A DNA stretch of 64,000 bases from an uncultured Clostridia bacterium (GTDB lineage: Bacteria; Bacillota; Clostridia; Christensenellales; Borkfalkiaceae), in NCBI GenBank assembly GCA_944368925.1, contig CALVXG010000008.1:34668-98667 (forward strand). Reading direction: 5' to 3'. Shown one piece after another: positions 20,406-57,628 of this stretch. Below the pieces are notes generated by a model. That model did no database searches. It was given only the letters and a program-made list of their open reading frames with translations, and was not told the origin of the DNA. The translations under genes and the position numbers were made by a program. The first letter of the stretch is position 1, and each line of letters starts with the position of its first letter.

Positions 20406-21392
20406 ATGATAGGAAGGAGAGAAATAGCAAAGATGGCGGGCGTTTCCACGACGACCGTTACGCGGGTTTTGTCCAAGTCCGGATCTGTTTCTCCCAAGAC
20501 GGTGGAGAAGGTATACAACGTGATCCGCGAAACGGGATATACGTGGAATGCGATCGCGTCCAATCTTTCCAAGAACAATCTGAGCAACATCATTGCGTTG
20601 CTGGTTCCGGACATGACGAACTATTATTATATGGAAATGTTTGACAGCATGATGAAGGCGGCGCGGCCGTACAGCATGTTGATCTCCATATACAGTATAT
20701 CAAACATGAATGCGAACGAAGTCGTGGAGGAGATCGTATCCAACCGGGCGCGCGGGATCGTGAACATGGGTTTGGTGCCGCTGACGCACGAATGTATGCG
20801 GCGGGTGGATCTTGCGGGGATCAAATTTGTGCACGGAGGGATCCGTGATCGGGAAGACTGTGATTTTCATATCGATTACCAGGAGGCGGTATCGGCGGCG
20901 GTGCGGCATCTGAAGGATACGGGCTGCAAGAAGATCGGTTTTTTGTTCGGGATGAAGCAAAAGCTTTTGCACGATGAAAAGATACAATGTTTCCGGCGGG
21001 CGATGGAGGAATGCGGATACAAAGAGCCGGACATATTTTTGGGAAGTTATCCGAACGTATCGGCATCGGTATTCGGATATGAGCAGGCAAAGAAGCTGTT
21101 TTCGGACGCGACGCCGTACGACGCTTTGTTTTGTTTAAACGATATGATGGCGGTCGGGGTGATGCGTGCGCTGATGGATTGCGGCAAGCGTATACCCGAA
21201 GACGTTTCGGTGATCGGGTTTGACAATATAAAATTGGGAGAATTTTTCAAACCGTCGGTATCCACCCTGTGCGGGGACATCATAGAAGAGGCAAAGGCGT
21301 ACGTACAATATTGTATGGGAGATTATACGCCCGGCGTCACAGTAAAATCCAGGTTTATCTGCCGCGAAAGCGTGCGAAAGCTGGAAACATAG
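20406..21392 (+). CDS. LacI-family regulator of glycan locus A
   Basis: A 328-residue repressor: N-terminal LacI helix-turn-helix (IGRREIAKMAGVSTTTVTRVL, then VSPKTVEKVYNVIRETGY with the hinge) and a periplasmic-binding-protein-like sensor (IIALLVPDMTNYYYMEMF, FCLNDMMAVGVMRALMDCG, VSVIGFDN). The ATG at 20406 has GGAGGGG before it; the open frame extends upstream to 20340, through operator OA2, which is not used. Operators OA1 and OA2 in its own promoter imply autoregulation. The first transporter gene begins 91 bases downstream, past two hairpins but no separate promoter, so the regulator and operon may be read together. The inducer is presumably an oligosaccharide imported by this locus. Confidence 0.93.
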   Translation: MIGRREIAKMAGVSTTTVTRVLSKSGSVSPKTVEKVYNVIRETGYTWNAIASNLSKNNLSNIIALLVPDMTNYYYMEMFDSMMKAARPYSMLISIYSISNMNANEVVEEIVSNRARGIVNMGLVPLTHECMRRVDLAGIKFVHGGIRDREDCDFHIDYQEAVSAAVRHLKDTGCKKIGFLFGMKQKLLHDEKIQCFRRAMEECGYKEPDIFLGSYPNVSASVFGYEQAKKLFSDATPYDALFCLNDMMAVGVMRALMDCGKRIPEDVSVIGFDNIKLGEFFKPSVSTLCGDIIEEAKAYVQYCMGDYTPGVTVKSRFICRESVRKLET

Positions 21393-21404
21393 AAAATTCG
21401 AATC

Positions 21405-21441
21405 AAAAAAAAGGTACCTTTTTTTTCGGGCAAGCCCGAAA
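21405..21441 (+). promoter_or_regulatory. Two adjacent hairpins between lacI and the transporter genes
   Basis: Eight A, GGTACC and eight T form a perfect palindrome (21405-21426) ending in a T-run. It runs into TTTCGGGC-AA-GCCCGAAA (21424-21441). The overlap of the two hairpins allows only one to form, as in an attenuator or processing site that sets transporter levels relative to the regulator. This is inference. Confidence 0.5.
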
Positions 21442-21483
21442 AACGATATTTATCAGAAAAAAATAAGGATGGAGGAGCAAAGA

Positions 21484-22917
21484 ATGAAGAGACTGTTGTT
21501 TAAAGTTGTGGCCGTCGTTGTTTCGGCGTTTCTGCTGGTGGGATGCGCGCCGCGGCTGAACGATCCCGTGACGGAATACAACGTAGATCTGAGCGTTGTG
21601 AGCAACTATGAAGTGGAAGGAACGCTGAAAGTCGGCATCACGACGATTTACACGGAGAGATGGCTGATCGATGCGCTGATCGAAGAATACAACCAGGTAT
21701 ACCCGAACGTGAAGGTGGAAGTGGACGAAGTGCAGGGGGCGTACAACAACACGCTGGTCGGGTACTGGCAGGCGGAGCAGAACACGCCGGGGATCATGCC
21801 GGACATTCTTGTTTCGAACAGCACGGATATGCATTCGATCATAGAGAACGGGATCCTGCTGGATCTGCAGGAATACGTAGACGCGTCGGTGGATGCGGGG
21901 CTGTTGGATCTGAATGATTTTTACGAAGATTACTGGAAGCTGGGGCAGGAAAATTTTGACGGAGACCAGTACGTGCTGCCGCGCAGTGCAGACCGTGTTG
22001 TGACGCATCTGAACCAGACGCTTTTTGAGACGATTTTCAAAGATTACAGTGACGACGAGCTGCCTTTTACGCCGATCGAGGGGACGAAGGTGCCTGCGAA
22101 CGGCTGGACGTGGCAGGAGTTTATGGACACCTGTGAAGTGATCCGTCAGTGGTACGACGCGAACGGGCGTGCGGAACAGTATCTGGTGGACGCATATTTT
22201 GACTGGGAGCCTATTTTCAATGCGATTTTCCGTTCGGAAGGGGCGGAGATCATCGACAAGGATAAGAACGTTCTGATCGACACGCCGGAAGTGAAGAAGG
22301 CGATGGAGCTGATGAACGAAGCGATCGAAAAGAGGTATGTGGCGCCTCCGGGAACGAGCGTACAGGGCAACTATGAAGGCGGCCAGGGAATTATGCTGTT
22401 CAACTCGGCGTATGCGCAGAGGTTTTACACGAGCCTTACGATCGACCAGGGATACGATTACAATCTGACGACGTTCCCTCTGATCAACGGAGAAGAAGGG
22501 CCGAGTTATATCGGAGCGGGCGTAGCGGGGTATGCGATGGCTTCGACGTCCAGGAACAAAGATCTTGCGTGGACGTTCCTGCTGTTCATGCTCAGCAAAG
22601 ACGGGCAGGAAGCATTGGCGCGCGGCGGTATGACGACGCTTCCCATCCGCAAGGATCTGGCGGATCCCGCGACGAGCGCGTGGGGCAAGACGCTGATGGA
22701 GCAGGGGATCAACATGAGCGCTTATACATACGCGACGGAGCGCTGCGTGATCACGAATTTCTATCTGAATACGGGCAAACCCAACATTTACAACGATCTG
22801 ATGTCGAGAGTTTCGGAGATGCTGAACACGTCGCTCGGCAGAGACGAGGCAACGCGTGCGCAGAAAATAGCGGAGTGCCAGGAAGATTTGGAATACATCA
22901 TCGAGAGTGCGAGGTAA
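21484..22917 (+). CDS. ABC transporter sugar-binding lipoprotein, locus A
   Basis: A 477-residue family-1 extracellular solute-binding protein. Residues 1-19 are a lipoprotein signal with lipobox LLVGC, so the Cys is lipidated and the protein sits on the outer face of the membrane. The mature part starts with LKVGITTIYTERWLIDALIEEYNQ, the usual first lobe. A segment FDGDQYVLPRSADRVVTHLN has a close twin in the locus B binding protein, showing the two loci are paralogous. AGGAGG lies 8 bases before the ATG at 21484; the upstream ATG at 21469 overlaps that site. The two permease genes follow at once. Substrate not readable, but oligosaccharides are the norm. Confidence 0.92.
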   Translation: MKRLLFKVVAVVVSAFLLVGCAPRLNDPVTEYNVDLSVVSNYEVEGTLKVGITTIYTERWLIDALIEEYNQVYPNVKVEVDEVQGAYNNTLVGYWQAEQNTPGIMPDILVSNSTDMHSIIENGILLDLQEYVDASVDAGLLDLNDFYEDYWKLGQENFDGDQYVLPRSADRVVTHLNQTLFETIFKDYSDDELPFTPIEGTKVPANGWTWQEFMDTCEVIRQWYDANGRAEQYLVDAYFDWEPIFNAIFRSEGAEIIDKDKNVLIDTPEVKKAMELMNEAIEKRYVAPPGTSVQGNYEGGQGIMLFNSAYAQRFYTSLTIDQGYDYNLTTFPLINGEEGPSYIGAGVAGYAMASTSRNKDLAWTFLLFMLSKDGQEALARGGMTTLPIRKDLADPATSAWGKTLMEQGINMSAYTYATERCVITNFYLNTGKPNIYNDLMSRVSEMLNTSLGRDEATRAQKIAECQEDLEYIIESAR

Positions 22918-22924
22918 TCTTGGC

Positions 22925-23884
22925 ATGAGTAAGTTGAATTTTGCGGGGAATGTCAAAGTAAAACGTATTTTTGGAATCATCAAAAAAACCGTAAAAGACA
23001 GCTATACGGGGTGGTTGTTTGTATTGCCGTTGGTGATCGGGCTGCTGGTTTTTACCTTTATCCCGATGTTTCAGTCGCTGATGTACTGTTTTTACGAATA
23101 CGACGGTGTGCGGGTGTTCCGTTTTATCGGCTTTGAAAATTTCGTGTATATGTTCACGATCGACCGTGACGTTCCCGTCGTGATTGCCAATACGTTTATA
23201 TGGACGGCGCTGTCCGTGCCGGTCAACCTTGTTTTGTCCTATGCGTTCGCGCTTTTCGTGAACATGAAGACGAAGGGGATGCGTTTTTTCAGAATTTTGT
23301 ACTATCTTCCCGTCGTGATTCCGGGCGTCGTGAGCGCGCTGCTGTGGAAGGATATTTTCGATCCCGTTTACGGTTTGGGAAATTCCTTTCTGATGCGGTT
23401 GGGCGTGGCGCAGGGCAATCTGCCCCGCTGGTTCGAATCGGAAGATTTCATGGCGATGGCATCCCTTCTGATCATGTCGCTGTGGGGGATCGGCGGAGGA
23501 ATGGTGCTGTGGCTGGCGGCGCTCAAAGCGGTGCCGGAGTCGCTGTACGAGAGCGCGCGCCTGGACGGCGCGAACGCGTTCGTGCGCTGTTTTGTGATCA
23601 CGATCCCGATGTCTTCGGCGATGATCTTTTACAACCTTCTGATGAGCGTGATCGGGTCATTGCAAAACTTTGCGACCTATATCGTGGCGCCGAATTCGGG
23701 CAAAGGCAACGGAAATTCGCTGTATCTGTACGCCGTGAAAATTTACAATACGGCATTCAGCGGTTATAAATTCGAATACGGCTATGCGAGTGCGCTGGCG
23801 TGGTTTCTGTTCCTGATCATAGCGGTTCTGACGGTTATTTTGTTCAGTACCAGCCGCTGGGTATATTACGGGGAGGAAAACTGA
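22925..23884 (+). CDS. Sugar ABC transporter permease, MalF/UgpA-like, locus A
   Basis: A 319-residue membrane protein with six hydrophobic segments, the first beginning GWLFVLPLVIGLLVFTFIPM. The cytoplasmic EAA loop, which contacts the ATPase, reads ESARLDGANAFVRCFVITIPM near residue 215. The C terminus STSRWVYYGEEN matches its locus B counterpart (TSKWVYTGDE). The ATG at 22925 is chosen because GAGG lies about 10 bases before it, and the frame starting earlier would overlap the preceding stop. Its end overlaps the next permease gene by one base. No ATPase gene lies in the cluster, so a shared MsmX-type ATPase from elsewhere is likely. Confidence 0.94.
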   Translation: MSKLNFAGNVKVKRIFGIIKKTVKDSYTGWLFVLPLVIGLLVFTFIPMFQSLMYCFYEYDGVRVFRFIGFENFVYMFTIDRDVPVVIANTFIWTALSVPVNLVLSYAFALFVNMKTKGMRFFRILYYLPVVIPGVVSALLWKDIFDPVYGLGNSFLMRLGVAQGNLPRWFESEDFMAMASLLIMSLWGIGGGMVLWLAALKAVPESLYESARLDGANAFVRCFVITIPMSSAMIFYNLLMSVIGSLQNFATYIVAPNSGKGNGNSLYLYAVKIYNTAFSGYKFEYGYASALAWFLFLIIAVLTVILFSTSRWVYYGEEN

Positions 23885-24747
23885 TGTTGCGCGAAAGAAA
23901 AAAAATCACCCCGAAAAAAGCGGTTTCGCTTACGATCGTCTACTTTTTCATGGTGCTGTTTGCGATAGTATTGCTGTTTCCGTACGTATTCATGATCAGT
24001 AAAAGTCTGATGACGGGGACGGAGGCGGCGCAGATTCCCGTGGAATTGTTCCCCAAAAAGCCGACGGCTTCCGCATACGGCAAGATCTTTTCCAGCGAAA
24101 ATTCGTATATGCTGTATGCGTTCAACTCTTTCAAGATCATTCTGTTCAACGTGATCGCGATACCTCTTTCCGCCTCTTTGGTTGCATATGGGTTTTCGAA
24201 GACCAAATTTTTCGGAAAGAATGCGCTGTTCGCGGTGATGCTGTCCACGATGATGCTTCCCACGATGGTATTGCAGATTCCACAGTTTGTCATGTTCATG
24301 AGTTTCGGCTGGTACGACAGCATGTGGCCGCTGACCATACCGAATCTTTTCGGCGGCGGCGCTGCCAATATTTTCCTGATCCGCCAGTTTATGCGCGGAA
24401 TTCCGAATTCGTTGGACGAAGCGGCCAAGATCGACGGCGCAAACGCGTTTATCCGTTATCTTGCGATCACGCTTCCTCTGTGCAAGGCCATCATTATTTT
24501 CATGATGGTATCCACGTTCATAGCGTATTGGAGCGATTTTTACGGGCCTTTGATTTATCTGAAATCTCCGTCGAAATTCACGCTGGCGATCGGTATTTTT
24601 AAAGAATCGGAGCAGCTGGTGCAGCTGGACGACAAGCCGGTTCTGATGGCATCGGGCGTTTTCATGACGATTTTCCCCGCCATTTTGTTCGGATTTTTCC
24701 AGAAAGAATTGATCGAAGGCGTGCAGATGACGGGATTAAAAGGATGA
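23884..24747 (+). CDS. Sugar ABC transporter permease, MalG/UgpE-like, locus A
   Basis: A 287-residue permease with six membrane helices and the EAA loop DEAAKIDGANAFIRYLAITLPLCK near residue 180. LFPYVFMISKSLMTGTEA is the typical beginning of MalG-like subunits, and it ends KELIEGVQMTGLKG, the usual C terminus of the family. The ATG shares its first base with the preceding TGA, so translation is coupled. It forms the transmembrane pair with the MalF-like subunit before it. Good similarity to the locus B permease supports duplication of the whole cluster. Confidence 0.94.
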   Translation: MLRERKKITPKKAVSLTIVYFFMVLFAIVLLFPYVFMISKSLMTGTEAAQIPVELFPKKPTASAYGKIFSSENSYMLYAFNSFKIILFNVIAIPLSASLVAYGFSKTKFFGKNALFAVMLSTMMLPTMVLQIPQFVMFMSFGWYDSMWPLTIPNLFGGGAANIFLIRQFMRGIPNSLDEAAKIDGANAFIRYLAITLPLCKAIIIFMMVSTFIAYWSDFYGPLIYLKSPSKFTLAIGIFKESEQLVQLDDKPVLMASGVFMTIFPAILFGFFQKELIEGVQMTGLKG

Positions 24748-24763
24748 TAAGGAGGAAAAAAAG

Positions 24764-26701
24764 TTGCGTAAAAAGTTGGCGGCTTTGTTGCTCTGTTTGC
24801 TTTTGGGCGTACAGGCGGTTGCCTGTACGCAAGGCGGAGGGGGAATGAAATATTTTGAACAGGACGGCGAGCTGAACGCATCCGCCGTCAGTAAGACCCG
24901 ATCGGTGGATATGCTGGCGTCCGTTGACGATTACGGGCGGGTCATGCAGCCTTCGGGGGGAGACAAGGCGGACAAAGACCGCTACGTGGGACTGTTTTAT
25001 TTCCTTTGGAGCGGGCAATACGGCACCGATACGGTGCGGGATATCAATAAAATGCTCTACGACGGCGATCCTTCGCTTTGGGAAAATTCGAATTTGCAGG
25101 CCTTCTATCACTGGGGCGAGCCGCTTTTCGGGTATTACAATTCCAAAGACCCGTGGGTGATCCGCAAGCATATCGAGCTTCTCACGTTGGCGGGCATCGA
25201 TTTTCTGGTTTTCGACACGACGAACAACACCGTCTATTACGACGTTCTGGACGTCTTGCTTCCGATCATGCAGGAATATTACGACGCGGGCTGGGACGTA
25301 CCGAAATTTGTCTTTTACACCAATTCCAATTCGGCGGAAGTGATCCGTGCGCTGTACTACGGAAACCGCAGTTCTTCGGTGGCAGATTCTTCCAGTTCTT
25401 CCAAGCTCAACACGGAAGGGATCTATAAGGCGGGGCAATACCGCGATCTTTGGTTCTGTCCGAACGGGAAGCCGCTGATCATAGGGATCACGGAGAACAA
25501 CGGCGGGGCGAGCGATCAGACCAGGTGGCCTTCGTCCTCGATCACGGGGGAAGCGAACACCGTTCTGAAAGCGGAGACGGACAGCGAGATCCTGAAATTT
25601 TTTGAGATCAAGGAATCGCAGTGGCCGACGACGGGCGTGAAGAACGAAAACGGGTTCCCGTGGATCGAATTCAACGAAGAGGCGACGGCATACGGGGAAA
25701 CGGTGAACGTATCCGTTGCGCAGCACAACAAACTTCCGTTTTCGGACGCGCTTCTCTCCTCGGTGATTTCGGAGCAGATGTGGGGGCGCGGCTGGCACGA
25801 CGGGGCGGCGGACCACAGCAACGATGCGATCTATTCGGGCGCGAATTTCGAAGAACGCTACGAAACCGCGATCGGGCTGGATCCGAAGTATCTGTTCGTG
25901 ACGGGCTGGAACGAATGGGTCGCGCAGAAGCAGTACGGGACGGGCAACAGTCCGAACACGACCACAGATCCTGATCTTCCCGAAAACAGGGTATTCTTTG
26001 TAGACACGGTCAACACGGAATATTCGCGGGACGTGGAAATGATGAAGGGCGGTTATTTTGACAATTTCTATTTGCAGATGGCGCGCAACAACCGCACCTA
26101 CAAGGGTACGGCGCGTGCGGAAAGCTATTCGGAAGCGGTGAAAATCGATATCGGCAAAGGGCTTACGCAATGGAATTCGGTCGGGGACGTCTATTACGAT
26201 TTTGAAAACGAGAGCGGGGCGCGCGATTTTGCGGGGCACGCGACGGATCTTCATTATACGCAGGACGCCGCGTCCAACGATTTTACGCAGGCGCGAGCGG
26301 CTTCGGACGGCAAGAATATCTATTTCCTCGTGGAAACGGCGAAGGACGTCGTAACGGACGCCGTGACGGGAGAATACCCGCAGCTGTATATACGCATTCC
26401 CGATCGGGACGGCGGGTATTACGGGTATCACTATTGCGTGAAGCTCAAAGACGGGAAAGCGGAGATTTATTCGATTGCGGACGGGAAGTACGAGCTTACC
26501 TTTGCGGGCAGCGGTTCGTTTTCGATCGGCGGCAGGTATCTGCAGATCGAGATCCCCAAGTCGAAACTGGATGTTTCGGGTGATTTCTGTATCTGGTTCA
26601 AAGTAGCGGGCGGGTGCGACCTGTCCGATCCGGAGAGCCTCTATACGAGCGGGGACACCATGCCGGCGGGGCGGATGAATTTTGCGTTTTACGGAAAATA
26701 A
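24764..26701 (+). CDS. GH99-like secreted lipoprotein, locus A
   Basis: A 645-residue lipoprotein: signal with lipobox AVAC near residue 22, a TIM-barrel-like domain to about residue 450, then a 200-residue beta-rich domain resembling CBM9/DOMON sugar-binding modules. Barrel blocks shared with the two locus B paralogues are VGLFYFLWSGQYG, HWGEPLFGYYN-KDPWVIR, the GIDFLVFDTTN strand, and TGWNEW at residues 380-385. In GH99 endo-mannosidases the last strand reads NEWxEG with two catalytic Glu three apart. Here the second Glu is Ala (NEWVAQK), so the mechanism may differ, or the protein may bind rather than cut. TTG at 24764 is the start, with AAGGAGG before it. Likely acts on the glycan taken up by the same operon. 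Family call is by pattern only. Confidence 0.7.
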   Translation: MRKKLAALLLCLLLGVQAVACTQGGGGMKYFEQDGELNASAVSKTRSVDMLASVDDYGRVMQPSGGDKADKDRYVGLFYFLWSGQYGTDTVRDINKMLYDGDPSLWENSNLQAFYHWGEPLFGYYNSKDPWVIRKHIELLTLAGIDFLVFDTTNNTVYYDVLDVLLPIMQEYYDAGWDVPKFVFYTNSNSAEVIRALYYGNRSSSVADSSSSSKLNTEGIYKAGQYRDLWFCPNGKPLIIGITENNGGASDQTRWPSSSITGEANTVLKAETDSEILKFFEIKESQWPTTGVKNENGFPWIEFNEEATAYGETVNVSVAQHNKLPFSDALLSSVISEQMWGRGWHDGAADHSNDAIYSGANFEERYETAIGLDPKYLFVTGWNEWVAQKQYGTGNSPNTTTDPDLPENRVFFVDTVNTEYSRDVEMMKGGYFDNFYLQMARNNRTYKGTARAESYSEAVKIDIGKGLTQWNSVGDVYYDFENESGARDFAGHATDLHYTQDAASNDFTQARAASDGKNIYFLVETAKDVVTDAVTGEYPQLYIRIPDRDGGYYGYHYCVKLKDGKAEIYSIADGKYELTFAGSGSFSIGGRYLQIEIPKSKLDVSGDFCIWFKVAGGCDLSDPESLYTSGDTMPAGRMNFAFYGK

Positions 26702-26751
26702 GGTTCAGACGGGCGAAAGCCTGAAAATAATAAATTGGGAGGAGAATTTGC

Positions 26752-28779
26752 ATGAAAAAAAGACTTGGCAAACTTGTTGGTCTTTTGGCCGTGTCTTTGG
26801 TGCTGGCTCTTCCGCAGCTGGGCATATTGGGCGCGGCGGCGGACGAGACGGGCAGCTGGGACGTGACGAACGGTTCCGCGGCGGGAACCGTCCTTACGGC
26901 GGCGGGGACTGACAATGATTTGTCTGCCGTGTATTCCGAGACGTTGAACCTCAATGACGGGATCAGTATTCAGTATGACATCAAGTCGTTCACGTTGAAC
27001 GAGGACGTGCAGGGCGATGCGGACGAAATGGACAATCAGATGATCACGTTTTCGTTCCTGTCCTCAGAGAATAACGGAATCAGCCTTGTAGTTCGGCCTT
27101 ACCGTCTGCAATGGGGAGCGAAGCTGAACCAGCGCATGATGGTCGCCGTTTATTATACGGAAAACGGCGTCACCATGAATGCGCCCATGTGGTATTTTGA
27201 TACCTATCTGGAGGTGTTCGACGATACGCATACGCTGTCCGTTCAGCACAGTTACGGATCGTTTTATGTGGAGGGTGACGGCCGTATCGCGCCGCCTTAC
27301 CGTCCTGCGTGCGACTGGGATCTGAGCAAGACGACGCTGACGGTAACGATGCACTCGTGCAAGGATGCGGCGTCCGTGGACATCAAGAGCATCGCGGCGG
27401 AAAAGACGAAGATCGCCGAAGGCGAGTGGCTGGACATGGGCCCGAGCGAGCACATCTATCAGCCGGACGGGTCGATCACCTATAAAAACATCGACGAGCA
27501 GTTCACGGCGGACGTCGGCAGCGGAAATCTTTGGCTGCATTCGCATATCGGATCGGTGCGCGGCTACGACGTGACGGAAAAGATCACGCTGAAGGTGCAT
27601 TACAACTTGAACGGTGCAGGCGTGTGGTGGGGAATGTATTTTGCAAACCAGGCCATGCTCCCGCTCGACCAGGAAAAGACGAGCATCGATTATACGGATA
27701 ACAGCCAGGCGTGCAAGGGAATTCAGTTCCAGAACGTGACGCCGTTCAAGGCGCAGACCTATTACTACAAGCAGGAAGGCGAAACGCCTACCGAAGAAGA
27801 GGCGAAGCAGCTCAAGCAGTATTATCCGAACGGGGTATCTGTTGCGTACGGCGGCGAAGAGATGCTGAACACGATCGAGATCGAGATCGGCGAAACCGCG
27901 ACGAAGATCAGCTTCAACGGCACGCTGTTGTGGGACGATTTCCGTATGACGCGGGACGATTTCTCGGCGGCGAACGGCGGAGACGGGAAAGTGTATTTCA
28001 TTTTCGAGTTTATCGAAACGCCTGCCACGCCCACGCGCGGCATCGACATGACGATCAAAGGCATCAACGTTCCGGAGATCACCTCTTCGACGACGCTGAC
28101 CCGTGCAAAAGCGGATACGAGCGATCTGGTGCTGGACGTGGACGATCCGGGCAACGGAGCGCTGCGCCTGTACGATGCGGACAGGAATGAGATGGATTCT
28201 TCGCTGTACAGCTATGCAAACGGCAAATTCAGCATCAAGGCGGCGGCGTTTGCGGATCTTGCGGTGAACGAAGATACGCCTTACAACTTCTTTGTCGGCA
28301 ACGACGGCGGTCTGGACGGCTTCTCGGTGCGGATCATGAACGAAGTGGTGGCTCTGGAACCCGCGGTGATCACGCCCGCGTCGTACACGCTTGCACAGGC
28401 GGGCTCGGCGACGGAAGACCTCGTGCTTTCGGTGGATTTCAAGACGGGTTCGTTTGTCTCGCTGGTGGGCGGCGGTCTGACCCGTTCGCAGTACACGGTG
28501 ACGGAACCTGCAGACGGATCTACGGTCGGCTCGATCAAGCTCAGCAAAGATTTTTTGAACAATCTTAAAGACGGCACGGTGACCATTCGTCTGACGACGC
28601 AGGATCTTTCGGGTGCGCAGGAAGTGACGGAATTTACGATCACGGTCGGAGACACTTCTTCCAGCGGGGGAGAAACGCCTGCGGGCGGCGGATGCAGATC
28701 CGCTTTGTTTGCGAGTGCGGGCGGCGCCGCGGCGGCAATTTTGGCGGCAGGCGCATGGCTTTTGCGCAGAAAAAAATGA
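26752..28779 (+). CDS. Surface protein with X2-like modules and Gly-Cys C-terminal anchor, locus A
   Basis: A 675-residue exported protein. Residues 1-29 are a signal peptide. Next comes a 170-residue beta-rich region, possibly jelly-roll (ISIQYDIKSFTLNED, WYFDTYLEVFDDTHTLSV), followed by a second such region. Near residues 450-640 are two Ig-like modules that resemble carbohydrate-binding X2 domains, the second with the sign SATEDLVLSVDF ... KLSKDFLNNLKDGTVTI. The end reads GGGCRSALFASAGGAAAAI, a hydrophobic helix, then RRKK, a tail shared with three other proteins here. A paralogue lies in locus B. It probably holds glycan at the cell surface. The ATG follows GGAGGAG. No enzyme motif is visible. 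Confidence 0.72.
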   Translation: MKKRLGKLVGLLAVSLVLALPQLGILGAAADETGSWDVTNGSAAGTVLTAAGTDNDLSAVYSETLNLNDGISIQYDIKSFTLNEDVQGDADEMDNQMITFSFLSSENNGISLVVRPYRLQWGAKLNQRMMVAVYYTENGVTMNAPMWYFDTYLEVFDDTHTLSVQHSYGSFYVEGDGRIAPPYRPACDWDLSKTTLTVTMHSCKDAASVDIKSIAAEKTKIAEGEWLDMGPSEHIYQPDGSITYKNIDEQFTADVGSGNLWLHSHIGSVRGYDVTEKITLKVHYNLNGAGVWWGMYFANQAMLPLDQEKTSIDYTDNSQACKGIQFQNVTPFKAQTYYYKQEGETPTEEEAKQLKQYYPNGVSVAYGGEEMLNTIEIEIGETATKISFNGTLLWDDFRMTRDDFSAANGGDGKVYFIFEFIETPATPTRGIDMTIKGINVPEITSSTTLTRAKADTSDLVLDVDDPGNGALRLYDADRNEMDSSLYSYANGKFSIKAAAFADLAVNEDTPYNFFVGNDGGLDGFSVRIMNEVVALEPAVITPASYTLAQAGSATEDLVLSVDFKTGSFVSLVGGGLTRSQYTVTEPADGSTVGSIKLSKDFLNNLKDGTVTIRLTTQDLSGAQEVTEFTITVGDTSSSGGETPAGGGCRSALFASAGGAAAAILAAGAWLLRRKK

Positions 28780-28824
28780 AATCGATCCGTTTCTGAACGG
28801 ATAAAAAAAGAGGGAGGAAAATAT

Positions 28825-44715: not shown

Positions 44716-44775
44716 AATGATAATATCTGACATTATTTGGATTTTGCAAACAATAAGCAAACAGAGTGGTGTAAA

Positions 44776-45765: not shown

Positions 45766-45780
45766 CGTCTGAAAAAATTT

Positions 45781-45802
45781 AAGACAAGCGCTTGTCTTTT
45801 TT
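45781..45802 (+). terminator. Short terminator of the locus B regulator gene
   Basis: AAGACAAGCGCTTGTCTT (45781-45798), stem of seven with a GCGC loop, then TTTT. It separates the regulator from the operon, unlike in locus A. Confidence 0.7.
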
Positions 45803-45925: not shown

Positions 45926-45985
45926 TTTACGGCAAAGCCGGAAAAAGTTGACAGGCAGAAAATATCAGGAAAAAAGGAGTAAATT

Positions 45986-47425: not shown

Positions 47426-47434
47426 GGGTGATCT

Positions 47435-48388: not shown

Positions 48389-48389
48389 G

Positions 48390-49259: not shown

Positions 49260-49263
49260 AAGC

Positions 49264-50979: not shown

Positions 50980-50996
50980 TGCAGGAGGGAAAGATT

Positions 50997-52997
50997 TTGA
51001 AGAAAGCAGTTTCTTTGTTGATGAGCATTTTATTTTTGATTTCTTCCGTATTTTTCGTCGGTTGCGGCGGGGAAACGGAGAAAGAACCGACAAAAGATCC
51101 GGAGCAAGGATCCCAGGGAGAAAGCGATATGACGATAGACAAGGGCGATGCAGGCAATCCCACGTACACGTTTGTGACGGACGGCGAGCTGGCGGTATCC
51201 ACGGTATCCCGTCAGGATACGATCAACAAGTTGCAGGCGACGGACGATTACGGCAGAAGTTTCGGATACATGGACGGCTACAAGACGGACAAAGACAGGT
51301 ACGTAGGGCTGTTTTACTTTACGTGGCTGGGCTGGCACGGCACGCAGATGCAGGGTGTTTACGATATTACCAAGCTGATCGATGAAAATCCGGACGCGCT
51401 TTGGGATACGGAAGGGAACGAAGAGAGTCCGCTCGGGCAGTATCATTATTGGGGCGAGCCGCTGTACGGGTATTACAACAGCAAGGATCCTTGGGTGATC
51501 CGCCGTCAGATGGAACTGTTTACTTTGTCTGGCATTGATTTTATTGCCTTTGACTGCACGAACGGGTACGATTATATCGACGTTGTTTCCGTGATCCTGC
51601 CTATTATGCAGGAGATGTACGACGAAGGCTGGGATGTTCCCAAATTTATGTTTTACCTGAATACGAGTTCCAAAAAGGTGCTGAATGATCTGTATTACGG
51701 GCGCGTGACATCTTCGGACAACGTATTGGAAAAAGAGGGGATTTATAAAAACGGTTATTATAAAGATCTCTGGTTTGCCCCCGAAGGGAAACCGAAGATA
51801 GCGGCGATCACCGATCCGGACAGCACGAACGGCGAAATCGGGGATCCGAAAGATCATATTGTGACCGATCCCGTTCTTTTGAACTTCTTTGATTTCTGGG
51901 AATCGTTGTGGCCGAACAAGGAGCAGTACGAAAACGGATTGCCTTGGATGGATTGGACAAAACCGCAGACTATTTACACAGATACAGTGAACGTATCGGT
52001 TGCGCAGCATAACAAACTGCCTTTCTCTGACGCGCTTCTTTCGGCGGAACTGGCCGATGAGATGTGGGGCAGAGGATATACGCTTGCGAACGGGCCGGAT
52101 CATTCGGACGACGCCATCGACGCAGGGCTGAACTTTGAAGAAATGTGGCAGAACGCCATAAAGTACGACGTGAAATACACGTTTGTGACGGGCTGGAACG
52201 AATGGGTGGCGATCAAGAGCGCTGCCGCGCTGGGCAACAACCAGGAATATGCGGAATGCCGCGGCAAACGCGTATACTTTGTGGATACGGTCAACCGTGA
52301 ATATTCGCGCGACATCGAGATGATGAAGGGCGGGTACGGCGACACGACATTTTTGCAGCTGATGCGCAACACGCGCACGCTCAAAGGAGCGGCAGGCGAG
52401 CTTGCGGCGAGTGCCAAGACGAGCATGGATATCAAAAAGGGCATGACGCAGTGGTCGCAGGTTGCGGACGTGTATTACGACGTTACGGGAGAAGGAAACC
52501 GTGATTACCGCGGGTTCACGCAGGATCTGCAATACACGGACGACAGTCTGAAAAACGACATTTCCGAGATCCGTGTGGCGCACGACGATGAAAATATTTA
52601 TGTGCTTGTCGTGTGCAAAGAGGATATCGTGCCGAATGTCGAGTCGAACAACTGGATGAATCTTCTCATCGACGTGGAAGGGCAGGACAACGACGCGTTC
52701 TGCGGTTATGATTACATTGTCAACCGCCAGTCCTCTTACACGGGCGATTGCAGCGTGGAGCAGTACGTAAAAGAGGGCGGAAAGATCGCTTACAACGGTA
52801 AGGGTGTCGCGAAGTTTACGTTAAACGGCAAATATATGCAGTTCAGCATTCCCAAATCCGCGCTCGGCATAACGGACGGATTCACGATCAACTTTAAAGT
52901 GGCCGACAATGTCACCGAACCCGAAAACATTCAGAGCTATTATATTTCGGGCGACGTCGCACCTGTCGGAAGGATCAATTATATATTCAAAGGTTAA
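50997..52997 (+). CDS. GH99-like secreted lipoprotein 2, locus B
   Basis: About 666 residues; lipoprotein signal with lipobox FFVGC. Domain order is the same as in the other two: barrel, then a beta-rich CBM9/DOMON-like domain over the last 200 residues. Barrel motifs are VGLFYFTWLGWHG, YHYWGEPLYGYYNSKDPW, SGIDFIAFDCTN, GYYKDLWFAPEGKPKIAAI, TGWNEWVAIK (398-407). It is closer to the locus A protein at 24764 than to its direct neighbour, for example both contain VNVSVAQHNKLPFSDALLS. The start is TTG at 50997, with AGGAGGG 8 bases before it; an ATG at 50979 overlaps the previous stop but has no site. The locus A homologue also starts with TTG. Duplicated partner genes suggest two linked substrates or steps. 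Confidence 0.7.
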   Translation: MKKAVSLLMSILFLISSVFFVGCGGETEKEPTKDPEQGSQGESDMTIDKGDAGNPTYTFVTDGELAVSTVSRQDTINKLQATDDYGRSFGYMDGYKTDKDRYVGLFYFTWLGWHGTQMQGVYDITKLIDENPDALWDTEGNEESPLGQYHYWGEPLYGYYNSKDPWVIRRQMELFTLSGIDFIAFDCTNGYDYIDVVSVILPIMQEMYDEGWDVPKFMFYLNTSSKKVLNDLYYGRVTSSDNVLEKEGIYKNGYYKDLWFAPEGKPKIAAITDPDSTNGEIGDPKDHIVTDPVLLNFFDFWESLWPNKEQYENGLPWMDWTKPQTIYTDTVNVSVAQHNKLPFSDALLSAELADEMWGRGYTLANGPDHSDDAIDAGLNFEEMWQNAIKYDVKYTFVTGWNEWVAIKSAAALGNNQEYAECRGKRVYFVDTVNREYSRDIEMMKGGYGDTTFLQLMRNTRTLKGAAGELAASAKTSMDIKKGMTQWSQVADVYYDVTGEGNRDYRGFTQDLQYTDDSLKNDISEIRVAHDDENIYVLVVCKEDIVPNVESNNWMNLLIDVEGQDNDAFCGYDYIVNRQSSYTGDCSVEQYVKEGGKIAYNGKGVAKFTLNGKYMQFSIPKSALGITDGFTINFKVADNVTEPENIQSYYISGDVAPVGRINYIFKG

Positions 52998-53008
52998 GGA
53001 GATAAGAG

Positions 53009-55126
53009 ATGAAGAAAAGATTTGTCTGGATCATCGCATTCGTGCTGCTTTTTGCCCTGAGCGTCTCGGCGGGGGCGGTCTTTGCGGCGGAGAGCACGAC
53101 GATGTGGGAAACGTCGTCCGCGGGTGCGTCGGTGACGGGAAACGAAACCGTTTCCAACGTCACGGGCGAAGCGGGAACGGCGATCGTGCTGAATCAGAAA
53201 GAGAAAGTCAACTTTAACGAAGGTGCATACGTCGAGTTTATCATCGTCAAAGCGACGGACACGACCATCTCTGCGGATGCGCGTCAAAACGGCGACAACT
53301 ACATCCGTTTCACGGCGGTGAACGCGCAGGGCGTGGGCGTCGAGCTGGTGATTTATGCGCGGTACTCTTCCGTTTCCACGATGGTGAACAAGATGGACGT
53401 GGACGTGTTCTATCTGGATCCTGCCGTCGAAGCGGGCGAAGACGCGGTGGCAGGGAAGAAATATCTGGAGACGTTCGAAACGTACCAGCGCATCGAAGAT
53501 ACCCGTCATTGCATCGATATTCACAAAGAGAACGATATGTGGTTCTTTGCGTTCGACGGACTGACGGCGATCCCCGTACCTGCACTCAACGCGATGGATC
53601 TTTCCGAAGCGTCGCTGACGTTTGAATATTTTTCGAAAACGAACACGCCTTCTTTCAAACTGTACACGGCGAAAGCGGGCATCAAAAAGCATTACATTGA
53701 AAACAATCTTCTGCAATTCGGTTCCGACCAGATCGAGCAGCTTGCGGACGATACGGTGCGTTACAAGATCGCAGACCAGCGTGCGGCGGAGTATGCGGGA
53801 CAGCAAATTCGTTACAGGGAGCATCTGATCAGTGCGACGGCTTACGACGTGCGTCAGCCCATCACGATCGAATACAGCTATGACGTATCCAATGCTTCTG
53901 CCGTATGGTATGCGGTGGGGTTGGGGCGTCCCGACGTGCTGGATTCCATCAACCGTCTTAAATACGACGTATTCGGCGAAGACAAGACCGAAGTAGTGGA
54001 AGATTACAGCGACAGTATTGCCGTCAAAAACGACGGGATCATGTTCCAGACGGGTACGGGCATGGCGCAGCCGACCGAACCTTCGCAGAACAACCGACTG
54101 GAAAGCTATACCACGAATTCTGCATCCAAGCCGTACGAGGGCAGGGAAAACATGGACCGTATCACCTTTATCGTAAAGGAGAACGGCACGGATATGTATC
54201 ACAACGGCAAACTGATTTTTTCCGATCTTGTGACAAAACTTTCCGATTTCGAATCCAACGGTTATAAGGCATATCCTTATTTCCATTTCTTTGAAGACGT
54301 GGCGAGCACTTCGAAGGGAAACACGATCGTCGTAAACGGTTTCAATGTTCCCGAACTTACCGAGGAAGATGCCGAGTATAAAGTGGTGGGCAATTCGAAC
54401 CAAGATCTGACGGTCGGGCTGAAAAATCCGGGCACGGGAGCGATCACGATGCTGGCGCCCGATGCGGAAGGTGTTTTGCAGGAAATGGATGCGTCTTTGT
54501 ACAGCTACGACGCAGCGACGGAAACGTTGACGGTGAAATATTCCTGGTTTGAAGGCAAGGCGTACGAAATTTATAAACTGTATGCGAGCAACGGCGACGG
54601 AAGTGCCGAAATCGTGGTGCGTTTCTCCGATCCGGATCTTGCGACTTTGCCTCCTACGGTAGAGAAGGAAAGTTATTTCTGGAAGACGGGCAGCGGAACG
54701 GAAGACCTTGTGGTCAAAGTGGATATCCACAACGGGATCTGGAAATCTTTCTCGGGTGCGGGCATCATGACCAACAACTACAAGGCAGAACTTGAAGCGG
54801 ATGGCAGCACGGTGTATGTGATCACGATCAGCAAGGATTTCCTGAACAACAAAAAGGCGGGGACGTACACCTTTACGGTGCGCACAACGGACGTGGAAGA
54901 GGGAAGTTATTCCTGCCAGTTCAAGGTCACGGTAGGCGAATCGGAGACGGAAGGGGATACGCAGCCCGGCGGTGATACGGAAAAGCCCGGCCCGTCCGGC
55001 GATACGGACGGCGGTGAAACGCAAAAGAGCGGATGTTCTTCCGCGATCGGCGTCGGGTCGATCGTTGCGGCGGCGCTTGTTCTCGGTGCGGCGGCGGTTT
55101 TGCTGCTGCGTAAAAAAGTTCGTTAA
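53009..55126 (+). CDS. Surface protein with X2-like modules and Gly-Cys C-terminal anchor, locus B
   Basis: A 705-residue exported protein with signal peptide (1-27). Two beta-rich regions come first (VNFNEGAYVEFIIVKATD; later ITFIVKENGTDMYHNGKLIFSD), then two Ig-like modules of X2 type. The second includes SGTEDLVVKVDIHNGIW and ITISKDFLNNKKAGTYTFTV, matching the locus A protein at 26752 down to SKDFLNN. The end is KSGCSSAIGVGSI, a hydrophobic helix, then RKKVR. A Pro/Gly-rich linker (PGGDTEKPGPSGDTDGGE) separates the last module from the tail, as in cell-wall proteins. AAGGAG before the ATG at 53009, 11 bases after the GH99-like gene. Proposed role: displaying or gripping the glycan at the surface. 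Confidence 0.72.
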   Translation: MKKRFVWIIAFVLLFALSVSAGAVFAAESTTMWETSSAGASVTGNETVSNVTGEAGTAIVLNQKEKVNFNEGAYVEFIIVKATDTTISADARQNGDNYIRFTAVNAQGVGVELVIYARYSSVSTMVNKMDVDVFYLDPAVEAGEDAVAGKKYLETFETYQRIEDTRHCIDIHKENDMWFFAFDGLTAIPVPALNAMDLSEASLTFEYFSKTNTPSFKLYTAKAGIKKHYIENNLLQFGSDQIEQLADDTVRYKIADQRAAEYAGQQIRYREHLISATAYDVRQPITIEYSYDVSNASAVWYAVGLGRPDVLDSINRLKYDVFGEDKTEVVEDYSDSIAVKNDGIMFQTGTGMAQPTEPSQNNRLESYTTNSASKPYEGRENMDRITFIVKENGTDMYHNGKLIFSDLVTKLSDFESNGYKAYPYFHFFEDVASTSKGNTIVVNGFNVPELTEEDAEYKVVGNSNQDLTVGLKNPGTGAITMLAPDAEGVLQEMDASLYSYDAATETLTVKYSWFEGKAYEIYKLYASNGDGSAEIVVRFSDPDLATLPPTVEKESYFWKTGSGTEDLVVKVDIHNGIWKSFSGAGIMTNNYKAELEADGSTVYVITISKDFLNNKKAGTYTFTVRTTDVEEGSYSCQFKVTVGESETEGDTQPGGDTEKPGPSGDTDGGETQKSGCSSAIGVGSIVAAALVLGAAAVLLLRKKVR

Positions 55127-55165
55127 AATGGGGGGGACGTACCCCGAAAATATAGGAGGAAATGT

Positions 55166-57628
55166 ATGAAAAAACGTAGCAGAGTCATTACGCTCATTTT
55201 GTGTCTGATAATGGCGGTTTCCTGCATCGGTGCAGGGGTAATGTTTGCCGCCGCGGCAGAGGAAGAAACGGCGCCGATCACCATCGTTTCGTATCCCAGT
55301 GAATTTGCTGGCGGTATCAACGATACCGATCTTCGTCTCAGCCAGACAGGTCTTGGCGGCGAAAACGTGACCAACCTTGAGGGCGCGACGATCGACGGCA
55401 AGCCGTTCAAAGAATATGTTCTTTTTAACGGCGAAGTCATCGACCCGACCAAGATCAACGTGCACTATTGTTCCAAAAGTACTTTTTCGATCGGCATCAT
55501 CGATGAAAGCATCAAAACGGTCGGCGCGACGCTGGAGCTTCTGAAAGGGCTTCCGATCCCGAATGCGGACAAAACGACGTCCGCGGGAGTGCTTGGCGAA
55601 TCGTTTAAGCTCGTTTATACCGTGAACGGCTGGATCAAGACGGCCCCTTCCGATTCGCAGGAGCGCACCGACGTAAAAGTAACGGGGCTGGGCACAGGCT
55701 TTGGAAACGGCGAATCCATCGTGTTCGATCTGGGACGCCAGGGAACCAACATGAACTACACCAACGTGCAGAATCTTTCCGACTGCGGCAAAAAGGTGGC
55801 ATCCTTTATCCTTTACAACGGAAATCCCGTAAACGGCGAATTTTCCGTTCATCTGTATGAAAATGCTTTCTACATTTATCCGAATAGGGGATTTGATTTT
55901 GAAGAAGGAGATATGATTGAAATTCTTGCGGGGTTGCATTTCCCTGCAAGTCAGGACGGGTCTGCGTTCCAAGATTATCTCGGGACGGGGATCAAAGTGA
56001 AATTTTCCAACGGATCCTGGGCGGAAAGTGCGGATGCAGGTTCGGTAAACTCTCTGAACAAGCTGGGCGGACTTACGTATATCGAAGCGGGCGCGACCAT
56101 GCCTGCCATGTACGAATTCTCTGCGGAATTCAAGCTGGAAGCGTCGGAAACGGAACTGTCCGATCTGCAGGAGCAGGCGAACTATTCGGAGAATTTCTTT
56201 ATCAACGGAAAGAGCGTCAAGCAGATCAACGAAGAAGTGAAAGCGGAAGATGCGGACGGCATCGAGATCCCTGCGGTCACGATTTCCGCCGTCGGCACGA
56301 CGATCAAGGTGACGGCCGTAGCGGATACGGGCGTACTTGATCCCGAAACCAACATTACGTTTAAAATTTCCAAAGCGTTTGTTTTTGAAACGAAGCACGT
56401 GCTTACCGAAGACATTGTACGGTATTATATCCCCGAACTTTCTTTCTGGTCGGATGTAGCGCCGTATGAAATCGAAAAGACGAACGTTGTGCACATTTCG
56501 TCCGTTTCCTTCGACGTCATCGACAAAGGTGTCAACGGAAGTGTGGATATCACGTTTGACGGCGACATTGCGGAAGGCATGATGCTGCTTTACAGCGGAC
56601 ATCCCGAATATCTGCTCTCCAATTCCGTACCTGCGGGCGCAGGGTATGCGAAAGAGCAGGCGGCTGCGCTTGCGTCTTCGGGAGCAACGCGCAACATTCT
56701 GGAAAACATCTACATCAACGGCAAAAAAGTAGGCGACTACTGGGCAGAACTTTCGGGCGCGGAAGCAAAATCCAACCGTTTCCAGATGCACATTCTCAGC
56801 AAAAACGTTCTTTCCATCCGTTCGAGCGTGACCAACGGGTTCGGCGATACGGATAACATCGAGATCACCTTCAAAGCAGGATTTACCTTCTTCTCGGGCG
56901 CATACATCGATCAGGATGTGACGCTCCGTTACGACGGAACGCAGCAGAAATTTGTGCCAGTATCCCTGGCGATCTCCGCAGAAAAAACGCAGCTGAACGC
57001 AGGGGAAAGCACGGCGCTCACCCTTACGGTGGATCCTTCGTTTATCAGCGCTACGCCTGTGTTCACCTCTTCGGATGAAACGGTCGCGAAAGTAGAAGCG
57101 GTGACGGACGAAGAGACGGCGGCGGTGACGTATGTGGTCAAGGCTTTGACGAGCGGAACGGCGAAAATCAAGGTGAGCCTGGACGGCGTCGTTTCCAATG
57201 AGATCGAGATCACGGTCAGTGCTCCTGCAACGGGCGTCACGCTGGATAAGACCACGGCAGAAATGAAAGTGGGCGATGAACTGACGCTGACGGCAACGGT
57301 TCAGCCGGAAGGCAGCACGGATGCGGTTGTCTGGACGAGTTCGGACGACAGCATCGCGACGGTGGAAAACGGCAAAGTTGTTGCCAAGAAAGCAGGCACG
57401 GTCACGATCACGGCGAAAGCGGGCGAACAGAGCGCTGTTTGCACGATCACGGTCAGTGAAAAGAGCGGCGGCAATGACAATACGGGCGATACGGATAAAG
57501 ACAATACGCAGACGGAAGAACCCGAAACTTCGGGCGGCTGTTCGTCTTCGGCAGGCGTAGCCGTTTTGGCGGTAAGCGTGTTGCTGTGCGCGGGGGCTGC
57601 GGTTGTTCTGTTCCGTAAAAGAGCATAA
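55166..57628 (+). CDS. Large surface protein: unrecognised repeats, Big_2 domains, Gly-Cys anchor, locus B
   Basis: An 820-residue exported protein, signal peptide to about residue 30. Four repeats of the unrecognised domain seen in the 28825 protein occupy about residues 35-595; the repeats share strands such as YVLFNGEVIDP, FILYNGNPVNG, FFINGKSVKQI and IYINGKKVGDY, each followed by a long strand and a GD turn. Two Big_2 Ig-like domains follow (LNAGESTALTLTVDPSF; LTATVQPEGSTDAVVWTSSDDSIATVENGKV is the pattern). It ends SGGCSSSAGVAVLAV, a helix, and RKRA. AGGAGG precedes the ATG. Last gene of locus B. The counterpart in locus A is nearly twice as long. Confidence 0.7.
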   Translation: MKKRSRVITLILCLIMAVSCIGAGVMFAAAAEEETAPITIVSYPSEFAGGINDTDLRLSQTGLGGENVTNLEGATIDGKPFKEYVLFNGEVIDPTKINVHYCSKSTFSIGIIDESIKTVGATLELLKGLPIPNADKTTSAGVLGESFKLVYTVNGWIKTAPSDSQERTDVKVTGLGTGFGNGESIVFDLGRQGTNMNYTNVQNLSDCGKKVASFILYNGNPVNGEFSVHLYENAFYIYPNRGFDFEEGDMIEILAGLHFPASQDGSAFQDYLGTGIKVKFSNGSWAESADAGSVNSLNKLGGLTYIEAGATMPAMYEFSAEFKLEASETELSDLQEQANYSENFFINGKSVKQINEEVKAEDADGIEIPAVTISAVGTTIKVTAVADTGVLDPETNITFKISKAFVFETKHVLTEDIVRYYIPELSFWSDVAPYEIEKTNVVHISSVSFDVIDKGVNGSVDITFDGDIAEGMMLLYSGHPEYLLSNSVPAGAGYAKEQAAALASSGATRNILENIYINGKKVGDYWAELSGAEAKSNRFQMHILSKNVLSIRSSVTNGFGDTDNIEITFKAGFTFFSGAYIDQDVTLRYDGTQQKFVPVSLAISAEKTQLNAGESTALTLTVDPSFISATPVFTSSDETVAKVEAVTDEETAAVTYVVKALTSGTAKIKVSLDGVVSNEIEITVSAPATGVTLDKTTAEMKVGDELTLTATVQPEGSTDAVVWTSSDDSIATVENGKVVAKKAGTVTITAKAGEQSAVCTITVSEKSGGNDNTGDTDKDNTQTEEPETSGGCSSSAGVAVLAVSVLLCAGAAVVLFRKRA

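Follow-up and report, generated by a model that had tools for sequence, protein, structure and literature searches.

The 64 000 nt window analysed here (the whole stretch of DNA under study; positions 34668–98667 of contig C8 in a 2.70 Mb genome of 44 contigs from an uncultured Clostridia bacterium) contains two paralogous loci, A (20340–36816) and B (44737–57628), which very probably belong to a family of glycan capture-and-import systems resembling the polysaccharide utilization loci (PULs) of Gram-positive bacteria. Their large surface proteins carry a cysteine-containing tag at the C-terminus, with a probable partner in an intramembrane protease of the CPBP family. This tag and its probable partner are the most unusual feature of the system; they were newly noticed in this analysis, and are absent from an earlier, sequence-only reading of the same DNA.

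All genes of the two loci are open frames on the + strand, and those common to both encode a LacI regulator, a sugar-binding lipoprotein, two permeases, one or more lipoproteins resembling glycoside hydrolase family 99 (GH99-like), a lectin/X2-type surface protein (p6 in A, p7 in B) and a Big_2 surface protein. Pfam matches to LacI, SBP_bac_8/1 and two copies of BPD_transp_1 are found in each locus, with Big_2 in the large surface proteins. Alignment of the paralogues reveals identities of 27–53 %, from 27 % for the regulators and 34 % (E 6e-78) for the sugar-binding proteins to 52 and 53 % for permeases 1 and 2, respectively, with 38 and 47 % for the GH99-like protein of A against proteins a and b of B, and 29 % (E 4e-61) for p6 against p7; the giant proteins have mainly Big_2 and the tail in common (44 % over 135 aa). 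This paralogy is far beyond chance. The composition of the two loci, and the paralogy of their transporter subunits and binding proteins, are thus as the sequence-only reading had described them. Its claim of an identical plan holds for the core set, but not for the number of GH99-like genes, of which A has one and B two, nor for two additional Flg_new lipoproteins in A (33434–36816) that have no counterpart in B. Similarly, the giant Big_2 protein assigned to both loci is indeed of 1507 aa in A, with five Big_2 stretches, but of only 820 aa in B, with a single stretch (Pfam).

Nor do A and B form a pair, as had been supposed. A search of the source genome with the GH99-like protein of A returned 21 pieces, corresponding to 14 genes on seven contigs plus a short fragment (C2 near 197500), and these 14 genes fall into 11 loci. 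In the locus maps, every one of the 11 has one or more ABC permeases next to its GH99-like genes, and nine have both. Amongst ten chosen sister-locus genes, Pfam identifies GH3, GH78 (two, and a weaker relative), GH31, GH116 and GH95-like domains (three, two of them weak), as well as URO-D, the latter under the cut-off. URO-D-like genes stand beside the GH99-like loci of this genome at L010:14565–15785, L012:2972–4201, L014:1254–2246 and L015:9641–10708, one having been scanned with Pfam (22.8 vs a cut-off of 23.9) and the rest grouped by eye. At L018:14035–18389, repeated frames (SIHALHAECD / STHSMRSAT) are followed by cas-like frames (by eye), and the repeats are probably a CRISPR array beside the GH99-like locus of contig C2.

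With regard to other genomes, the GH99-like family is present in 13 of 61 from the same genus and order, all 13 belonging to the genus itself (13/37), and in none of the 24 that represent the order's other families. A scan of a contig collection yielded 490 relatives, the records being mostly of uncultured Clostridia, with some Bacilli-like and some from Bacteroidota. The loci of the best 80 of these 490 were mapped, many being short or cut, with profiles seeded from own-locus proteins that had been chosen by eye or with BLAST and, in some cases only, checked with Pfam. Due to the simple gene caller used, in which long antisense frames can hide genes (as they still do at G000 C6 near 47567 and C11 near 52396), gene absences in these maps are soft. 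The order LacI, sugar-binding protein, permease 1, permease 2, GH99-like, p6/p7 and large surface protein occurs in L019, L020, L021, L022 and L025, the first three lying in genomes of the same genus (same coordinates and scores), and partly in L023 and L024, which are cut. The GH99-like protein of L019 is 89 % identical, and both Flg_new lipoproteins are present there too. The gene sets, whose separation in relatives the sequence-only reading had named as a ground for its own rejection, are thus kept together. A second arrangement, consisting of (AraC), a 420-aa gene, sugar-binding protein, permease 1, permease 2, GH99-like, (GH99-like), (420-aa gene), large protein and GH78, is found with gaps in L035, L040, L044, L046, L050, L052, L084, L088, L092 and L095. 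The pair of 420-aa genes in L044 encodes a GDSL hydrolase together with an alpha/beta-hydrolase (Peptidase_S9 match), and the large protein there contains Big_2. Amongst the 80 mapped loci, the sugar-binding protein with both permeases is seen in 19 and the Gly-Cys tail in 24. In L062, from a relative within the Bacteroidota, the family lies beside SusD and a TonB plug protein.

It is because the gene order recurs in relatives that the loci are regarded as Gram-positive PUL-like systems. A Gram-positive PUL is defined, in the accessible text of PMC5320581, by the presence of an enzyme, a transporter and a regulator in one locus; transporter genes (the sugar-binding protein and two permeases) and a LacI regulator are present in both A and B. 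The loci resemble the PULs of Roseburia and Eubacterium rectale, as far as that text describes them, in having a regulator (LacI/AraC), a mostly ABC-type transporter and glycan-active proteins, and in occurring many times per genome. They differ in that the degrading enzyme is an unproved relative of GH99, and in that large tagged surface proteins form part of the unit. The identification put forward by the sequence-only reading therefore fits in content and order, but the category is an established one (PMC5320581, in its accessible part) and not new. No Pfam match to the SusC/SusD pair, by which PULs of Bacteroidota are recognized, exists amongst the genes of A and B. A further likeness is to the csc clusters of Lactobacillus and relatives, Gram-positive surface-protein clusters proposed for carbohydrate acquisition, although these, in the accessible portion of PMC1534035, encode nothing but surface proteins, WxL domains being present in some; amongst the scanned proteins of A and B there was no Pfam match to WxL at E 0.001.

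The AlphaFold2 model of the GH99-like lipoprotein of A, from 102 aligned sequences, has a pLDDT of 93.3 and a pTM of 0.92. Its best Foldseek matches in the PDB are GH99 4ad0 (E 8.5e-7, TM score by target 0.46) and GH71 8yfh (9.3e-6), whilst its C-terminal part resembles a domain of glucodextranase 1ug9 and other sandwiches of that kind. An hmmsearch with the family profile reaches GH99 4acz at E 1.5e-8, aligning NEW-x-A with the NEW-H-E of GH99. A PDB search with a single sequence returned nothing, GH99 being reached only by the family profile, and neither Pfam nor NCBIfam gave a match over cut-off for the three GH99-like proteins of the window. Profile and fold together uphold the GH99-like name given in the sequence-only reading. 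The catalytic glutamates of GH99, E333 and E336 in the Bacteroides xylanisolvens enzyme taken as reference, were located from the titles of PDB entries 6fwg (E333Q) and 6fwo (E336Q) and from the 6fwo alignment (NEWHQ). The first corresponds to E384, which is invariant in all 102 aligned sequences, as are D151, N154, W287, D414 and R422; E119 is retained in 92.

As to substrate, GH78 occurs in 25 of the 80 relatives' loci (local profile; a raw count with no background rate) and also in sister loci of the source genome, and RhaA, class II aldolase, FGGY kinase and GDSL esterase genes lie beside the family in chosen loci. An L-rhamnose isomerase is found in L035, and in L058, from the Bacteroidota, the GH99-like family occurs with GH78, a class II aldolase, a xylose-isomerase-like barrel and an FGGY kinase. 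Because GH78, RhaA, aldolase, kinase and GDSL genes adjoin the family in this way, the substrates of the wider family may be rhamnose-containing, esterified glycans, the link for A and B being one of association. It is plausible that the two loci differ in the glycan served. Elsewhere in the window, an FGGY kinase and an L-rhamnose isomerase (RhaA) at 8199–10818, with a divergent AraC regulator at 7161–8138, constitute rhamnose catabolism near the loci, and a GDSL protein (16719–17855) is 28 % identical over 390 aa to the GDSL hydrolase of L044 (E 7e-43).

For the surface protein p6, an AlphaFold2 model from nine sequences has a pLDDT of 76.5. Foldseek matches it domain by domain, with low overall TM score, to SraP (4m00, the top match), BT3469 (4jqt), galectins and laminin LG pairs, and at lower rank to trimodular Cel5B-type enzymes (4v2x, 5xrc, 5e09), the middle domains of which are X2/Ig-like. 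The matches of the modelled fold fit with glycan capture. For the X2-like character proposed for these proteins the sequence match is weak (CBM_X2 at 21.9 bits vs a cut-off of 28.9, in one paralogue), but the fold search agrees with it. An extra lipoprotein of A, searched against the PDB, gave the Flg_new/InlB repeat only.

These surface proteins end in Gly-Cys-(Ser/Asn/Arg), a transmembrane helix and Lys/Arg, without LPXTG. The pattern [GS]C[SNGARTHE] stands just before the helix in 12 of 15 secreted proteins with a transmembrane tail and basic end (window and own loci), as against 2 of 395 windows of like length in the bodies of the same proteins. Gly-Cys is invariant in 12/12 aligned tails, themselves chosen by the [GS]C pattern, and in the loci of relatives 25 of 51 tails bear the tag. 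LPXTG is found in none of the 15 own-locus tails and none of the 51 from relatives, and sortase (PF04203) occurs in one of the 37 genus genomes, namely the source genome itself (G000:C39:2355–2846), and in none of the 36 others; anchoring by LPXTG and sortase was rejected on these grounds. A profile of the tail finds 28 places in the source genome (the 12 training tails included) and matches 24/37 genus genomes at least once; elsewhere in the order there are weak matches in 4 of 24 genomes (best E 0.001). Nine further stretches of the source genome encode 11 tagged proteins, with sugar-type permeases in all nine (local profile, no random control). When eight of the 12 tails were scanned with NCBIfam, the best MYXO-CTERM match was that of p7, at 19.2 bits vs a cut-off of 20; one other tail exceeds the LPXTG cut-off (17.6 vs 15.9) without possessing the LPXTG motif. 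Within a GH99-like locus, L014:16647–18485 encodes a protein that combines a glycerophosphodiester phosphodiesterase domain with the Cys tag at its tail.

CPBP proteins (PF02517) are present in all 37 genus genomes, and three kinds are discernible among 20 stretches from 15 genomes. One is a distinct CPBP-family intramembrane protease, for which the name type IIa was coined in this analysis; its EExxxR, FxxxH and HxxxN motifs are invariant in 11/11 aligned sequences, and L099 provides one example of the protein. Within the genus it is all-or-none, matching at E ≤ 7.5e-80 in 21/40 and giving no match in 19/40. The treatment of long-span CPBP matches as a single type was rejected, the other subfamily (G000 C1, G023 C34, G028, G032) being left uncounted. 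Four of the genus genomes read (G000, G032, G023 and G028; stretches L100, from G000 C1, L114, L117 and L118) contain a CPBP protein of a third, highly conserved kind, which does not track the tag. When a best tail match of E ≤ 1e-4 is required, 16 of the 37 genomes have both tag and type IIa, three the tag only, three type IIa only and 15 neither (Fisher p 5.5e-5), so that the protease is present in 16/19 tag-rich genomes vs 3/18 others. A rule of at least two tag matches gives 16, 2, 3 and 16, respectively (p 1e-5), and the laxest rule, of any match at 0.01, gives 17, 7, 2 and 11 (p 0.002); such within-genus tests overstate the independence of genomes. A comparable picture emerges from 24 genomes carrying GH99 loci, in 15 of which the tag was seen in the locus (that of L024 by eye), with nine untagged, including that of L047, where no surface protein with a transmembrane tail is in view. 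Six of the 15 are genus genomes already scored for type IIa (five of them among the 37), leaving nine tagged genomes of unstated kinship. Seven of these match type IIa at E ≤ 1e-38, an eighth reaches only 2e-13 and the ninth gives no match, and the untagged nine have no match below 1e-5 (7/9 vs 0/9, p 0.002), although the latter are no clean control, because several are from distant lineages. In the named strain Pumilibacter intestinalis CLA-AA-M10, tagged proteins are encoded on contig L082 and type IIa is matched at 1.4e-62.

Both halves of this arrangement have known analogues. In myxosortase systems, according to the accessible text of PMC11980579, a C-terminal Cys tag, transmembrane helix and Arg-rich end are cut by the CPBP protein MrtX (EExxxR, HxxxN); the same text proposes lipidation, and gives as the scope Myxococcota, with MrtJ in beta- and gamma-proteobacteria. 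The present system is like MYXO-CTERM/MrtX in its C-terminal Cys motif, helix and basic end, in a candidate CPBP partner with EExxxR and HxxxN, and, as predicted, in having many substrates for one enzyme. It is unlike it in its host, a member of the Bacillota, and in scoring below the NCBIfam cut-off for the Gly-Cys-Ser/Asn/Arg signature and below the Mrt cut-offs for the protease. Synerg-CTERM/MrtS and JDVT-CTERM/MrtJ likewise combine Cys-type tags with CPBP proteins (JDVT from the accessible part of PMC11980579, Synerg by model name), but tag and protease here score far below the respective NCBIfam cut-offs.

Taken as a whole, these observations moderately favour an explanation in which the loci are Gram-positive PULs for capture and import, with Cys-tag sorting of their surface proteins by type IIa. 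The large Big_2 protein and the lectin-like p6 and p7 would project from the membrane and retain the glycan, whilst the GH99-like lipoproteins at the same membrane would bind it and probably cut it, by a chemistry altered from that of GH99, as only one of its two catalytic glutamates remains. Pieces would be imported by the binding lipoprotein and the two permeases, and the LacI protein, predicted to act as a repressor, would read the imported sugar and control the operon. The glycans may contain L-rhamnose and esters, judging by gene association in relatives. A C-terminal sorting signal of Gly-Cys-(Ser/Asn/Arg), transmembrane helix and Lys/Arg would be read by the dedicated type IIa protease, with a lipid probably placed on the tag Cys, as has been proposed for the myxosortase system.

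Several observations weigh against this explanation. On the glycan side, the superposition of the GH99-like model on GH99 is loose because the root-mean-square deviation is large (9–16 for the GH99/GH71 rows, with TM scores by target of 0.38–0.49), and the second catalytic glutamate is replaced by alanine (A387) in 102/102 aligned sequences, a biased sample because one of the two search patterns for relatives included this site ([AV]); in the 14 proteins of the source genome, found by whole-protein search, the site is Ala in 11 and Val in three. In addition, none of the genes in either locus bears a proven hydrolase signature, and GH78 is absent from both loci. Due to the alanine, the GH99-like proteins are relatives of GH99/GH71 but not canonical endo-mannosidases: they share with GH99 endo-alpha-mannosidase/mannanase (4ad0, 4acz, 6fwo) the fold, the profile similarity and the first catalytic Glu in NEW, and depart from it in the second Glu, in an extra C-terminal sandwich domain and in being lipoproteins of ABC-transporter loci. 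From their sequences we conclude that they would be either GH99 relatives with altered catalysis or binding proteins. As non-enzymatic surface glycan binders with a GH99 fold they would leave A and B to import oligosaccharides cut by others, an option in keeping with the uniform alanine, with the want of any Pfam hydrolase match in either locus and with the glucodextranase-like C-terminal part. We consider it doubtful, however, as the retention of E384, D151, D414, R422 and W287 throughout, and of E119 in most sequences, is more than binding would usually keep, and cutting of the glycan by these proteins is predicted as the rather likelier outcome. Somewhat less probable again is that small rhamnosides or other oligosaccharides are what the loci take up, the large surface proteins being adhesins only loosely tied to uptake. 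In favour of this, neither locus encodes a proven depolymerase, adhesins commonly contain Big_2 and lectin-like folds, and SraP itself heads the matches of p6; but p6/p7 and the large protein keep their order with transporter and regulator across genomes, and the tagged proteins of all nine further stretches lie with sugar-type permeases (a count with no random control).

On the sorting side, 3 of the 15 own-locus surface proteins have a transmembrane tail without Cys, type IIa is missing from the tag-positive G004, G019 and G032 and present in G007, G023 and G034 without a strong tag, and amongst genomes of GH99 loci that of L052 is tagged without type IIa and that of L044 has only a weak match. 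The best of four type IIa proteins scores only 20.6 vs 75 for MrtJ, 18 vs 100 for Mrt_core and 16.1 vs 130 for MrtS (NCBIfam). A tree of type I CPBP proteins, covering 34 of the 37 genus genomes (G003, G024 and G036, with no type I CPBP listed, are left out), places the genomes with neither trait in three places, and the discordant genomes as single tips, some beside concordant sisters (G019/G016, G032/G030, G023/G020), which may come from incomplete assemblies. The tree offers four independent changes in type IIa, the tag changing the same way in 1.4 on average, the opposite way in 0 and showing no difference in 2.6; for pairs chosen by tag there are five, with type IIa going the same way in 1.5 and the opposite way in 0. 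Because independent changes are too few, the association is not significant after allowing for descent. Four of the 13 GH99-bearing genus genomes (G009, G021, G025, G033) are not tag-rich, and all four are without type IIa. Three of the four encode an orthologue of a tagged surface protein in which the helix and basic end are kept but Gly-Cys is lacking, the untagged protein of G009 being 72 % identical over 967 aa to the tagged one of G018. Joint loss of enzyme and tag would look like this, though all three genomes belong to one clade. The small number of changes and the Cys-less tails within one genome suit a reading in which the tail is a mere membrane anchor, type IIa does other work (peptide processing or N-terminal lipoprotein acylation) and the two co-occur by descent. 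LnsB, of lipoprotein N-acylation in Staphylococcus aureus, is said to be a CPBP protein. CPBP is named 18 times in the accessible text of a paper on this two-component system for N-acylation (PMC7387801). Such a reading is nevertheless unlikely, given the invariant Gly-Cys of the aligned tails (picked, it is true, by their Cys pattern), the link between tag and type IIa in genomes outside the genus set, the orthologues that lack Cys where the protease is absent and the intact catalytic motifs of type IIa. That tag and type IIa form one sorting system is predicted, and appears to us reasonably probable.

With regard to regulation, two TGTACCNGGGTACA palindromes lie upstream of A (20280 and 20345), the motif giving four matches (each palindrome counted on both strands) against 0.36 expected, with 1 of 100 shuffles equally high; amongst 154 loci it recurs only in the orthologous L019, there twice. 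At B, GACAAGCGCTTGTC has one exact copy (45783), and its five matches at up to three mismatches, against 2.86 expected, are not above chance. The different operators suggested for A and B are thus supported as far as the palindromes of A are concerned, but the single copy at B amounts to no statistical finding. A shared operator motif, AANCGNTT, was rejected, 38 having been found against 38.1 expected by chance. A GC-rich inverted repeat lies 3′ of B at approximately 57690–57718 (by eye). Neither Rfam matches nor tRNAs (ARAGORN) were found in the window.

Table 1. Features of loci A and B, in window coordinates (TM, transmembrane helix)
Feature	Position	Strand	Evidence and remarks
Candidate operator A, copy 1, palindrome TGTACCTGGGTACA	20280..20293		Motif also twice in orthologue L019
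Candidate operator A, copy 2, TGTACCAGGGTACA	20345..20358		Motif counts
A LacI-family regulator	20340..21392	+	LacI 1.2e-14, Peripla_BP_3 7.4e-22 (Pfam); start probably ATG 20406
A sugar-binding lipoprotein	21469..22917	+	SBP_bac_8 2.7e-20; lipobox by eye
A permease 1	22907..23884	+	BPD_transp_1 1.6e-8; 52 % to B
A permease 2	23800..24747	+	BPD_transp_1 5.5e-14; 53 % to B; start probably ~23884
A GH99-like lipoprotein, GH99/GH71-like barrel and C-terminal beta-sandwich	24764..26701	+	AlphaFold2, Foldseek, profile
A p6 surface protein: lectin-like sandwiches, X2/Ig-like domains, Cys tag	26752..28779	+	AlphaFold2, Foldseek
p6 Cys tail tag (GGGCRSA-TM-RRKK)	28669..28776	+	Tail alignment
A giant Big_2 surface protein with Cys tag	28825..33348	+	Big_2 2.2e-33, five stretches
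Giant protein Cys tail tag (GGCNSA-TM-RKRK)	33238..33345	+	Tail alignment
A lipoprotein, Flg_new repeat and one further domain	33434..35200	+	Flg_new 1.9e-11; 50 % to next gene
A second Flg_new lipoprotein, like its neighbour	35221..36816	+	Flg_new 2.1e-10; 8 further genome matches including neighbour
B LacI-family regulator	44737..45765	+	LacI 5.2e-15 (Pfam)
Candidate operator B, GACAAGCGCTTGTC, weak	45783..45796		One exact copy
B sugar-binding lipoprotein	45986..47425	+	SBP_bac_8 7.5e-23
B permease 1	47435..48388	+	BPD_transp_1 1.1e-7
B permease 2	48390..49259	+	BPD_transp_1 1.1e-19
B GH99-like lipoprotein a	49264..50979	+	38 % to that of A
B GH99-like lipoprotein b	50979..52997	+	47 % to that of A
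B p7 surface protein, p6 homologue, Cys tag	53009..55126	+	29 %, E 4e-61; tail MYXO-CTERM 19.2 bits vs cut-off 20
p7 Cys tail tag (SGCSSA-TM-RKK)	55016..55123	+	Tail alignment
B Big_2 surface protein with Cys tag	55166..57628	+	Big_2 5.8e-12
B Big_2 protein Cys tail tag (SGGCSSS-TM-RKR)	57518..57625	+	Tail alignment

Other contents of the window include two chromate-transporter genes (11450–13143), a 313-aa protein just before A (19043–19984) that matches only parts of DNA polymerase III alpha, and an ADP-ribosylglycohydrolase among small genes between A and B (38634–39584). Beyond B, at 58498–63458, lies a Type III-like restriction–modification pair (N6_N4_Mtase, then ResIII/DEAD) with a GC content of 0.38–0.44, a stretch that was perhaps acquired.

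In open-licence papers, no account was found of how large proteins are displayed on the surface of these gut Clostridia, in whose genus none of the 36 other genomes shows a sortase, nor of a comparable tag-and-protease system in Clostridia. The present analysis leans slightly towards the view that such Clostridia possess their own myxosortase-like system in place of sortase, in which the Cys tag would be lipidated and trimmed by a distinct CPBP protease, mainly for glycan-capturing proteins of sugar ABC-transporter loci, and that the GH99-like proteins are a new carbohydrate-active family with altered catalysis. If tag and dedicated protease do belong together, they would provide a rule for finding surface proteins from sequence, and would extend to the Bacillota a form of sorting that the accessible text of PMC11980579 reports for Myxococcota and, in the case of MrtJ, Proteobacteria. 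The GH99-like family, with its 490 relatives, is for its part a sizeable carbohydrate-active candidate that links Clostridia and Bacteroidota and points to rhamnose-containing glycans.

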